From Palaeococcus pacificus DY20341 (GTDB lineage Archaea; Methanobacteriota_B; Thermococci; Thermococcales; Thermococcaceae): 64,000 nt of DNA. A model generated the notes under the pieces. The model was given only the letters and a program-made list of their open reading frames with translations. It was not told where the DNA came from and did no database searches. Each line of letters starts with the position of its first letter. Positions within the stretch are counted from its first letter, which is position 1. The DNA is taken from assembly GCF_000725425.1 (NCBI RefSeq), contig NZ_CP006019.1, positions 1,116,001-1,180,000 on the forward strand, read 5' to 3'. Shown piece after piece: positions 1-10,226 of the stretch. The position numbers were made by a program, and so were the translations under genes.

Positions 1-36
1 GCGAATGTGCAGTTGAATAAAGATATGTTAATAGTG

Positions 37-147
37 TTTTTTAAGTGATTTTTGTTGTTTTTCCTTTGTTTAAGTTGCTAAGGGTCGTTATGGGCTTAAA
101 ACATGATTGGGGCTTTTAGAAGCTGAATTTAATTTTTTAAGTGATTT
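37..147. repeat. 15-bp direct repeat in the left-edge intergenic stretch
   Basis: The 15-mer TTTTTTAAGTGATTT occurs at 37-51 and again at 133-147, 96 bases apart, in the AT-rich stretch 1-270 before the first gene. I see no ORF or RNA gene in this stretch. The repeat lies inside the presumed integrated element and could be a pair of regulatory sites for the downstream membrane-protein gene, or chance in AT-rich DNA. Confidence 0.35.
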
Positions 148-2193: not shown

Positions 2194-2592
2194 ATGAAAA
2201 GGAAAGTTAGCAGTAGTAAAAGCAAAGATGGGTTTAGATATCCGATTTTAAGATTGCCTAGAGATTTTGACTGGCTGATTGGGAGAGAAGTTGAAATTGA
2301 TTTCAAAGTTGTTGATGGTAGAAAGGCCCTTGTAATTTATGTTGATGGGAATGGGAACGCGCAAGTTGTACAAAATGTTGTACAACTTAATGATACTTCA
2401 CTTAATGTAGAGGCCCGTTTAGGAGAGCTTGAGCAAAGATTGCAGTTTTTAGAGTGGTTATGTTTTAAAAAAGCTGTTTTAGAAGGGGGTTCAACTTTAT
2501 GGTGGGCCCGCGGGGATTCGAACCCCGGACCTTCGCCGTGTGAGGGCGACGTCATAACCAGTCTAGACCACGGGCCCGCCCAAACTTCTTAG
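2194..2592 (+). CDS. Int(N): N-terminal fragment of an SSV-type integrase running into tRNA-Val
   Basis: A 132-residue frame. Residues 1-60 form a small basic beta-rich domain (RYPILRLPRDFDWLIGREVEI), residues 65-90 look like a short coiled coil, and the last 30 or so residues are read from the antisense strand of tRNA-Val (WARGDSNPGPSP...). No catalytic tyrosine-recombinase residues (R..HxxR..Y) are present. This is the expected form of the amino part of an SSV-type integrase whose gene is cut by integration at an att site inside a tRNA. The start at 2194 has GGTGA upstream; the in-frame GTG at 2185 overlaps the previous stop. The matching Int(C) should lie left of the window. Confidence 0.68.
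   Translation: MKRKVSSSKSKDGFRYPILRLPRDFDWLIGREVEIDFKVVDGRKALVIYVDGNGNAQVVQNVVQLNDTSLNVEARLGELEQRLQFLEWLCFKKAVLEGGSTLWWARGDSNPGPSPCEGDVITSLDHGPAQTS
2500..2577 (-). tRNA. tRNA-Val (anticodon CAC), CCA encoded
   Basis: Read on the minus strand, the acceptor stem GGGCCCG pairs with CGGGCCC. The anticodon arm TCGCC-CTCACAC-GGCGA carries CAC for valine GUG codons, and the T arm is CGGGG-TTCGAAT-CCCCG. The discriminator A is followed by a genomically encoded CCA (plus-strand TGG at 2500-2502). The gene is intact although it marks the border of the integrated element, as expected when the att core lies within the tRNA. Confidence 0.95.
2500..2577. other. Probable attachment site (attL/attR core) inside tRNA-Val
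   Basis: The Int(N) reading frame continues without a stop through the entire antisense tRNA sequence, so the att core must fall within this interval. The exact crossover cannot be fixed without the other copy, which should be a partial tRNA-Val sequence at the far end of the element beyond base 1. Confidence 0.5.
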
Positions 2593-7139: not shown

Positions 7140-7423
7140 GAAGGCAAACTCTCGGAGTTTTTATTGAATTAAGGATCCCATCCATACTCTTATATAGGAG
7201 TGAGGTCAACACTTGTGTAGTAATTAAATTATTCTTTTAGAATTAGACATTGGCAGAGACAGATTCAATGAGTGTTTTGACGGCTATTAGGGCTCTATAC
7301 GTTTAACAGCAAATATTGAAGCATTAATGGGGAGTTTGTTTCATTTGAAGTTCTAAGGTCTTTGCTACACAGGAATGCTCAAACAGTTGTAGTTGTGCTG
7401 TCTCTGCTCTTGAGGTGGTTGGA

Positions 7424-8128
7424 GTGTTGAGTAAAAGAGAGTTGGAGAGATATAGTAGGGAGATTGAGATACTAAGTGTTGAGGGGCAAGAAAAACTTAA
7501 AAATTCCAAAGTGGCGGTAGTAGGGATTGGAGGCTTGGGCTCGCCGGTGGCTTATTATTTGGCTGCTGCGGGCATAGGAGAGCTTTTGCTAATAGATGCG
7601 CAGAAACCAGAACTAAATAATTTGGATAGGCAAATCCTCCATTGGGAAGAAGACTTGAACAAGAACCCAAAGGTAATTTCGGCCAAATGGAAGCTTGAGA
7701 GGTTTAATTCTGATATAAAAATTGAGACTTTCATCGGAAAGCTCACGAGAAAGAATATTGATGAAGTTTTGAGAGAGGTAGATGTTGTGGTTGACTGTGT
7801 GGACAATTTCGAGACCCGTTATATTCTGGACGAATACACAACGGAGAAAAATATTCCCTTAGTCCACGCGGCTATTAGCGGCTTCTACGGTCAAGTTACA
7901 ACAATAATCCCCGGAGAGACCGAGTGTTTAAAAGATATGTTTCCAGATCCTCCTCAGGGGAGAAAAGAAAAATCTCCTATTTTTGGGCCAATAGCAGGGA
8001 TTATTGGGACAATTGAAGTGGCTGAAGTTGTTAAGCTCATAACTAAGTGTGGAGAACTCTTAACCAACAAACTTTTGATTGTGGACTTAGCATGTGATTC
8101 GTTTGAGATTATTGATCTTAAGGACTGA
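7424..8128 (+). CDS. ThiF/MoeB-family E1-like adenylyltransferase
   Basis: A 234-residue E1-like protein. It contains the nucleotide-binding GIGGLGS (residues 34-40), NNLDRQILH with the conserved arginine-finger region, DVVVDCVDNFETR, and GPIAGIIGTIEVAEVVKLI near the end. Such enzymes adenylate the C-terminal glycine of a ubiquitin-like sulfur carrier (MoaD/ThiS/SAMP). It lacks the paired CxxC zinc motifs of many MoeB proteins, so it is a short variant. GTG 7424 is favoured because GAGGTGG lies at 7412-7418; TTG 7427 is also possible. It stands alone, so the pathway (molybdopterin, thiamine or tRNA thiolation) is open. Confidence 0.85.
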   Translation: MLSKRELERYSREIEILSVEGQEKLKNSKVAVVGIGGLGSPVAYYLAAAGIGELLLIDAQKPELNNLDRQILHWEEDLNKNPKVISAKWKLERFNSDIKIETFIGKLTRKNIDEVLREVDVVVDCVDNFETRYILDEYTTEKNIPLVHAAISGFYGQVTTIIPGETECLKDMFPDPPQGRKEKSPIFGPIAGIIGTIEVAEVVKLITKCGELLTNKLLIVDLACDSFEIIDLKD

Positions 8129-8194
8129 AATTTTTTGAACGTTTTTCCTTTATTTTCTCTGGATAATCCAAGTTTGAAGTAAAGAATAAAAAAG

Positions 8195-9043
8195 CTAAAC
8201 TTTTATCTCCTCGTACTTTCTCTTCATTAAAACTGCGTCTCCTTCAATGTTTGGACTTTCGCTTATCACAACACCTTTAACTTTGAACTCTTTGAGCACC
8301 TTTAAAAGCTCTTCCCAGTTCATGTCGCTATCCTGAAGGTTGAGGTGGTTCTTTTCACCCTTTTCAGTGTAGTTTATTCCGCTTATGTGAATATGCATGT
8401 TGTCCAGTGCTTCCCTCCCAAGCTCCTGCTCCATAAGAGAGAGCATCTCACGCCACTCTTTTATTGTATTGTACTCCCCTTTGTTCCTCGCGTGAGCATG
8501 GGCAAAGTCTATTGCGGGAAGAACCATTTCCACCTCTTGGCTGAGCTTGATTAACTCTTTTAAGTTGCCAAATTGGGTCGGCTTGCCCGTTAGCTCTGGC
8601 CTGATCCACAATTCTATTCCTTTATCTTGAAGGGTCTTAACAACGTCCTTGAGTTCTCCCTTTATACGCTCGTAGACTTTTACAGGGTCTTGCTTTAGGT
8701 AATAACCAGCGTGGAAGACAACGCTGTAGCCGCCCGCTTCATGTAAGCGCTCCGCACTCTGAATTATCCTGCGCTTGCTTGCCTCGACCTTTTCCTTCTC
8801 TTTGGCGTTTAAGTTGATGTAGTATGGAGCGTGAGCTGTGAGAATAATATCGTTCTTTTCAGCAACGTATTTGGCTTTTTTAGCAAGTTCTGGCTTTAAA
8901 TTAATTCCTCTAACGAATTCAAGCTCCATAGCGTCTAACCCTAGCTCCCTAACCTTTTGAATCCCATTAATAGTAGAGCGCTTTGGCGTGGATATAGGTA
9001 TTCCAGCCGTTCCAAACCTTAGCTTTTTGAGCTTTATCCTCAC
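8195..9043 (-). CDS. Endonuclease IV-like TIM-barrel protein (AP endonuclease 2 family)
   Basis: A 282-residue xylose-isomerase-like TIM barrel. Metal-ligand positions typical of endonuclease IV are visible as HAPYYINL, VFHAGYY, RPELTG, DFAHAHA, MHIHISG and ESP along the barrel strands. Endonuclease IV enzymes cut DNA at abasic sites with zinc; this member could act on DNA or be a sugar isomerase-like relative. Start choice: GGTGG followed by GTG at 9043 gives correct spacing, giving an N-terminus of MRIKLKKLRFGTAG. An earlier in-frame GTG at 9055 would overlap the ribosome-binding site. Confidence 0.8.
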   Translation of the reverse strand: MRIKLKKLRFGTAGIPISTPKRSTINGIQKVRELGLDAMELEFVRGINLKPELAKKAKYVAEKNDIILTAHAPYYINLNAKEKEKVEASKRRIIQSAERLHEAGGYSVVFHAGYYLKQDPVKVYERIKGELKDVVKTLQDKGIELWIRPELTGKPTQFGNLKELIKLSQEVEMVLPAIDFAHAHARNKGEYNTIKEWREMLSLMEQELGREALDNMHIHISGINYTEKGEKNHLNLQDSDMNWEELLKVLKEFKVKGVVISESPNIEGDAVLMKRKYEEIKV

Positions 9044-9152
9044 TCTCACCACCACAAAAATTAGGATGCCCTAAAATATAAAACTTGTGCAACTCAAAGT
9101 TAGATGTGCTGGGGAATGTTAAAGGATTAAAAGCATAAAAAGAGAAAAATCC

Positions 9153-10226
9153 TCAATCAACTTCGATTTTAGTGTTCAGGATTTTCTCAAGCCTCTTTAA
9201 ACTCTCGTTAAGCTCCTTTTCAAGCTCCTTTACCTTTTTCTTCAGTTTTTCGAGATCTTCTTCTTTCTTCCTTATGCTCTCTTTCACTCTCTTTAGCTCA
9301 CTTTCAAAACTTTCTATCTCTTTAGTTTGCTCTTTTCTCCTCTCCTCAAGGGTTTTAAGCTCGGCCTTCTTTTGCAGTATCTCCTTTGCTTCATTTTCGA
9401 GCACCGCTATCAATGCTTTAGCTTTCCTTTCGTGCTTCTTATCAAAGTAACCCTTGCTTAGGGCATCTGATATTAGGTCTTTGACTTTCTGCGGCTCTCT
9501 TAGGGCAAACTTTGTATCGTTCAGGAAGCTTTCCACAACTTCGCTCTTCATCCTGGCCTTTTTCAAAGGCTTTTTGAGTGATGAGAGCTCGGAGGTAAGT
9601 TTAATCTCTCTGTGGGATATTTCTTTTCTGAGCGCTTTTATTTTCTCCTCAAGTTCCAGAAGCTCTACATTTCCCCTCTTTTCGTGAATCCTTTCACTTA
9701 AAGTTGCTTCCTTTTCTTTCAGTACTTTTATCTCGTGCTCCAGCTCCTCAGCAGCTTTCTTTGTATCTCCAATGCTATTGAGAATGTCCATAATATCCGG
9801 TGCCTCTGGCTCTTCAATTTTGGCCAACTGTCCGTGGTATTCCTTATAAACCTCAGAAAGCTCCTTTAAGAGGCGGTTTATTTTGTAGATCCGCTTTTCA
9901 AAAATTAGCATTACGTACTTCCCGTGGCTTACGTGGAACTTTGAGAGATCAGGAAGGAATCGGCCAAGCTCATCTATGTCATTGCTCTTCTCAAGGAGCT
10001 TCCTCAAAGTTTCAACATATGCTCTCCTCTCACTCTGCACAATCTTTGATACCCTATCATCGATGTTTTTTGGGAGTTTGGCCTTCTCTAAGCCCTCAAC
10101 TTCTTTGCTTATCTTTTCAATGAGCTTTGAAGATTTTTTGGTGTATTTTTCTTTGAGCTTTTTTCTTTCCTTTAAGGACTCCTCTTTTTTCTTTTCAAGC
10201 TTGTGAAGTGCTTTCTCCAGCTTCAA
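9153..10226 (-). CDS. Long coiled-coil protein of unknown function
   Basis: A 357-residue protein made almost entirely of charged heptad repeats (Lys/Glu-rich), with breaks near residues 90-115 (FLPDLSKFHVSHGKYVMLIFEKR) and 235-270. It resembles archaeal coiled-coil proteins of the phosphoserine phosphatase-like/SMC-like annotation class, but it has no ATPase or phosphatase motif. A TTG start at 10226 follows GGATGGAG. The gene overlaps the end of the DUF373 gene by 32 bases, so the two are translationally coupled. Confidence 0.7.
   Translation of the reverse strand: MKLEKALHKLEKKKEESLKERKKLKEKYTKKSSKLIEKISKEVEGLEKAKLPKNIDDRVSKIVQSERRAYVETLRKLLEKSNDIDELGRFLPDLSKFHVSHGKYVMLIFEKRIYKINRLLKELSEVYKEYHGQLAKIEEPEAPDIMDILNSIGDTKKAAEELEHEIKVLKEKEATLSERIHEKRGNVELLELEEKIKALRKEISHREIKLTSELSSLKKPLKKARMKSEVVESFLNDTKFALREPQKVKDLISDALSKGYFDKKHERKAKALIAVLENEAKEILQKKAELKTLEERRKEQTKEIESFESELKRVKESIRKKEEDLEKLKKKVKELEKELNESLKRLEKILNTKIEVD

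Follow-up and report, generated by a model that had tools for sequence, protein, structure and literature searches.

Positions 2194-2547 of the 64,000-nucleotide stretch of Palaeococcus pacificus DNA analysed here (the window; G000:C1:1116001-1180000, from a 1.86-Mb single-contig genome) encode the Int(N) half of an SSV-type ('suicidal') split integrase, and the locus as a whole is very probably explained by an integrated 5.6-kb element at tRNA-Val (CAC). The element belongs to an apparently undescribed set of very small elements that carry a putative nuclease but no recognisable replication gene. Suicidal integrases are known from archaea only, and the persistence of elements whose own integrase is destroyed remains to be explained (PMC8371274). 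A suicidal-integrase element is of a known kind; what provisionally appears new is a Thermococcales group near SSV1, a compact nuclease-bearing layout and a tandem chimera.

A split integrase at a tRNA-Val gene

The initial annotation had proposed that an open frame at 2194-2592 marks the edge of an integrated element, its signature being that the frame continues through the full antisense of an intact tRNA-Val. The frame (2185/2194-2592, with an ATG at 2194) does traverse the whole antisense tRNA without a stop. By itself this says little: tRNA-Val (CAC) has a stop-free frame among its three antisense frames, and any open reading frame (ORF) entering there passes. Reading the sequence left of the window directly, we found the other end of the element: an exact 51-bp copy of the end of Int(N), lying just outside the window at a distance of 5,585 bp (attL to attR), followed by an in-frame Int(C) (Table 1). 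The predicted leftward extension, with an Int(C) gene bordered by a partial tRNA-Val, was thus borne out at 5.6 kb, where up to 50 kb had been allowed, and the genes at 271-2188 lie between attL and attR, as had been supposed. The att lies inside the integrase gene, with its 51 bp present in both halves in the same frame, and joining the halves at att yields a single open frame of 471 amino acids (aa). The target tRNA is intact on one side of the element and partial on the other. The interval first assigned to the fragment, 2194-2592, holds Int(N) as far as 2547; its last part, 2548-2592, is the remainder of the host tRNA plus flank.

Table 1 Features of the element and its split relatives (window positions unless another reference is given)
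Feature	Position	Strand	Description
attL	genome 1112912-1112962 (L009:10912-10962)		51-bp exact copy of 2497-2547; partial tRNA-Val
Int(C)	L009:10963-12024, left of window	plus	353 codons, directly after attL, same frame
Nuclease-like ORF, 347 aa	directly after Int(C), left of window	plus	E...D...ExK motif
Cargo ORF, 153 aa	genome 1115587-1116048 (L009:13587-14048)	plus	3' end is window 1-48
Cargo ORF, 207 aa	271-894	plus	predicted membrane protein by hydrophobic segments; no family
Cargo ORF, 174 aa	925-1449	plus	invariant IDVVW ... FExEL
Cargo ORF, 244 aa	1454-2188	plus	one N-terminal hydrophobic segment; no family
int(N)	2194-2547	plus	first 118 codons of split integrase, ending with att
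attR	2497-2547	.	51 bp identical to attL; spans tRNA 3' end up to anticodon stem
Host tRNA-Val (CAC)	2500-2577	minus	intact, restored by integration; sole Rfam match
Split element with own att pair	G005		4.1 kb; tRNA-Val TAC
Split element with own att pair	G027		2.7 kb; tRNA-Val TAC
Split element with own att pair	G021		6.3 kb; tRNA-Ser GGA

The boundary is confirmed by an empty site in a relative from another genus of the same family (G080), in which the unoccupied tRNA-Val region is one continuous sequence: the left flank with att aligns to L105:1909-2104 at 78% identity, and att with the remaining tRNA to L105:2054-2139 at 98.9%. G+C content is 34-39% in the element versus 41-46% in flanking core genes on both sides. 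Further left, what separates attL from the syntenic ABC-transporter genes is an accessory region (L009:4300-10642) with an OLD/AbiL-like ATPase and partner gene (PADLOC AbiLi, 3.9e-32; PDC-M38B, 3.6e-7) and, named by eye, a CoiA-type nuclease and a NERD-like protein; it is probably a defence island or the remains of the older element described below.

Int(C) matches PF16795 (archaeal phage integrase; E=1.7e-41), PHROG integrase 5127 (8e-49) and the PDB structures 3uxu/3vcf/4dks, entries named 'probable integrase' (1.7e-16), which we take to be the SSV1 integrase catalytic domain. It carries the tyrosine-recombinase residues R-K-R-H-Y. When it was aligned with the pT26-2 and pSSVi integrases and those of four Thermococcales relatives, R207, K245, R285 and Y319 proved invariant; at position 308 the present integrase group has H, whereas pT26-2 and pSSVi have R.

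Int(N) matched no curated family above cut-off. This would suit a reading of the ORF as spurious read-through of the antisense tRNA, with no integrase fragment at all, as would the fact that one tRNA-Val antisense frame is always stop-free. Such an origin is vanishingly improbable, being refuted by the att pair, the paired Int(C) and the empty site. That Int(N) is real follows from the 51-bp repeat, the in-frame Int(C), homologues in eight other genomes and a third-position bias: homologues occur in 9 of 94 Thermococcaceae genomes, the present one included, several of them at tRNA-Val genes, and Int(N) differences pile up at the third codon position (for example, 8/8/31 and 25/17/46 by codon position). 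The predicted Int(N) model (pLDDT 57) has a strand-strand-helix-strand-strand order followed by a coiled coil. Compared against the AbrB/SpoVT swapped-hairpin fold, its matches include MazE, pSSVi C56 and pSSVx C68, all with E above 1; the Int(N) and 174-aa models (pLDDT 57 and 53) were too weak for fold assignment, and Foldseek searches with them gave nothing below E=0.05. PDB profile searches with Int(N), the 347-aa nuclease-like protein and the 174-aa family gave no credible match.

A compact group of elements apparently near SSV1

Three other Thermococcaceae genomes each hold a further split element with its own att pair (Table 1). The order Int(C)-nuclease-cargo-Int(N) is conserved in three of the four elements, in each of which the nuclease-like gene directly follows Int(C); this gene is missing from the G027 element (L053, reverse-complement coordinates 7326-10059), whose 2.7 kb are nearly all integrase and whose Int(C) linker is unusually long. 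The G021 element has HsdM/HsdS-like genes, named by eye, in place of the 174-aa gene. In further genomes, Int(N) relics stand alone at tRNA-Val. A second set of elements, of 8.2-8.8 kb and also at tRNA-Val, has related Int(C) sequences (G071, G087 and G089; L055, L060 and L061); in G087 and G089 its Int(N) is RHH-like. By eye, this set carries genes resembling those for helicases and packaging ATPases and others for MerR-like and small membrane proteins, and it probably represents small proviruses with related split integrases.

In the integrase tree, the present integrase groups with those of G005 and G027 (support 96/94), and these three join G021, G044 and the G071/G087/G089 set in one group (97/94). 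This Thermococcales group adjoins SSV1/pSSVi, the nearest reference clade, at 87/83, short of firm support, and stands apart from pT26-2 and pGE2; pTN3 and APOV1 form long branches of unsure position. The element shares with SSV1 and pSSVi a split integrase with internal att, a tRNA target and a PF16795 domain, and pSSVi, a 5.7-kb integrative plasmid, is also of similar size. It differs from them in its Thermococcales host, N-terminal domain and cargo, in an integrase identity of only ~29% and in having no recognised replication gene.

The pT26-2 family also uses a suicidal integrase directed to tRNA 3' ends, tRNA-Val included (PMC6972569). Its integrase, however, is 25-27% identical to that of the element and falls in a different clade, and its members, of about 20 kb or more, have no tested cargo gene in common with the element. 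Membership of this family is ruled out by the tree, and neither Int(N) nor any of four cargo proteins matches a plasmid. pTN3/TKV4 (from T. nautili and T. kodakarensis) likewise encode a suicidal integrase in Thermococcales, but pTN3 targets the 5' half of tRNA-Leu (PMC8371274), unlike the element, whose att lies at the tRNA 3' end as in the pT26-2 and SSV types. pTN3 also carries a capsid protein and an MCM helicase, and its integrase is 26% identical to the present one; membership is ruled out by the att position, the lack of MCM and capsid genes and an integrase outside the pTN3 clade. Among the viral matches listed, the best E-value belonged to the integrase of Archaeoglobus veneficus pleomorphic virus 1, which is 30% identical across the catalytic domain; this 18-kb virus is otherwise unrelated to the element.

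The suggested search for the joined integrase in free plasmids and viruses brought up none: Int(N) had no match in plasmid, phage and IMG/VR collections, and Int(C) matched only distant integrases, at no more than about 31% identity. Neither a free circular form nor an intact homologue of the joined integrase turned up in these collections. In IMG/VR, Int(C), Int(N) and the 174-aa protein were each scanned without a hit, and a genome-contig scan gave one locus.

Cargo genes and mode of maintenance

From attL, the gene order is Int(C), 347 aa, 153 aa, 207 aa, 174 aa, 244 aa and Int(N), all on the plus strand and every ORF open. The element thus comprises an integrase, the 347-aa protein and four other ORFs. 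The 347-aa protein is a putative PD-(D/E)XK-type nuclease, judging from E128, D167, E182 and K184, which are invariant in three divergent proteins. A PD-(D/E)XK-like fold is also possible for the 174-aa protein, at low confidence from its model; its homologue in the G005 element is 79% identical and likewise stands just before Int(N). Elsewhere, two 326-aa proteins (L074:7674-8654 and L075:6915-7895) consist of two copies of the domain of this ORF, one adjoining a pT26-2-like integrase and the other adjoining tRNA-Val(GAC). The five cargo proteins had no credible match in Pfam, PHROG, NCBIfam or PADLOC, the last giving no defence match for any of the five ORFs, and four of them had no match among plasmid records. 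No replication or capsid gene is recognisable in the element.

We propose that a 5.6-kb circular element would have entered the chromosome by site-specific recombination at the 3' part of tRNA-Val(CAC), using its own tyrosine integrase, with the attP in its gene being the 51-bp match to the tRNA. Integration would have cut the gene, leaving Int(C) by the partial tRNA and Int(N) at 2194-2547 abutting the restored tRNA. By themselves, the halves of a split integrase generally show no activity, and elements have been observed to excise once a related intact integrase was provided (PMC8371274). Neither half here would be expected to recombine alone. Since the genome's only other related integrase copy is fragmentary, the element is presumably trapped at present and could be freed only by an intact related integrase acting in trans. 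As no replication or capsid gene was recognised, replication and transfer would depend on a helper, and spread may be assisted by other elements, the element being a satellite-like hitch-hiker whose load is a putative nuclease plus cargo that varies. One of the cargo ORFs without a family could nevertheless be an unrecognised replication protein.

Two other origins of so small an element were weighed. It is unlikely to have arisen by deletion from some larger plasmid or virus, such as one of the pT26-2 or pTN3 type, that lost its replication genes after integration. The missing replication gene, the 2.7-kb G027 relative that is almost integrase alone and the loci that retain only Int(N) would accord with such loss, but no ORF of the element is interrupted, three independent elements share the order Int(C)-nuclease-cargo-Int(N), no tested ORF matches pT26-2, pTN3 or any plasmid, and the integrase lies outside the pT26-2 and pTN3 clades. 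We also consider it improbable that the element is a compact autonomous plasmid in which the 347-aa nuclease-like protein or another ORF starts replication. The placing of the nuclease-like gene immediately behind the integrase gene in three of the four elements, its invariant residues and the 480-bp non-coding stretch that follows Int(C) could be read in this way; against it, there is no similarity to any replication family, the 347-aa gene is absent from the G027 element, and a search of the element for iterons or an origin gave only repeats at chance level.

Successive integrations at one tRNA

Adjoining attL on its left, at L009:10700-10911, is the start of another integrase. This Int(N) relic is of pT26-2 type, unlike the Int(N) of the element itself: its N-terminus is 40% identical to the pT26-2 integrase over 37 aa. 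Homologues of the relic are intact in G080 and G093, where they run in frame through the tRNA-Val, and in G093 a partial tRNA-Val is also followed by an Int(C) of pT26-2 type. The same comparison rules out the alternative that the ORF at genome 1112700-1112897 is an unrelated host RHH gene. An earlier pT26-2-type element would thus have used the same tRNA and left its Int(N) just upstream of what is now attL, the present element having inserted between that Int(N) and the tRNA. The second integration therefore set a foreign Int(N) before the new Int(C). At genome 1112700-1114021, old Int(N), att and new Int(C) follow one another as a chimeric integrase gene; all that interrupts it is a difference of one base in length from G080 and G093, which may be a sequencing error.

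Right of the window, a second tRNA-Val (TAC) carries a mosaic Int(N) relic (L010:7659-7850; genome about 1190659-1190850), with an RHH-type head like that of G087 and G089 and a ~60-bp tail of ~90% DNA identity to window positions 2435-2499; a decayed Int(C) fragment lies nearby at L010:9388-9729. The mosaic suggests exchange between tRNA-Val loci.

A review of archaeal recombinases describes tandem integration and chimeras arising through homologous inversion (PMC8371274); a direct route to a chimera by successive integration was not found in that review, within a limited literature search. We tentatively suggest that a complete integrase can be rebuilt when one tRNA receives suicidal integrations in succession: the resident Int(N), the shared att and the Int(C) of the newcomer would form a chimera whose N-terminal DNA-binding domain is new. 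In the case here the frame is broken, and the element belongs to a minimal, putatively helper-dependent family.

With this element, the integrase groups of Thermococcales come to three. The added one, placed near SSV1, has carriers of 2.7-6.3 kb, smaller than the pT26-2 and pTN3 types, and the locus offers a physical example of two successive integrations assembling a chimeric integrase gene. If complete integrases can indeed be regenerated in this way, trapped elements could escape, and N-terminal domains, such as the RHH type and the present type, could be shuffled without homologous inversion.
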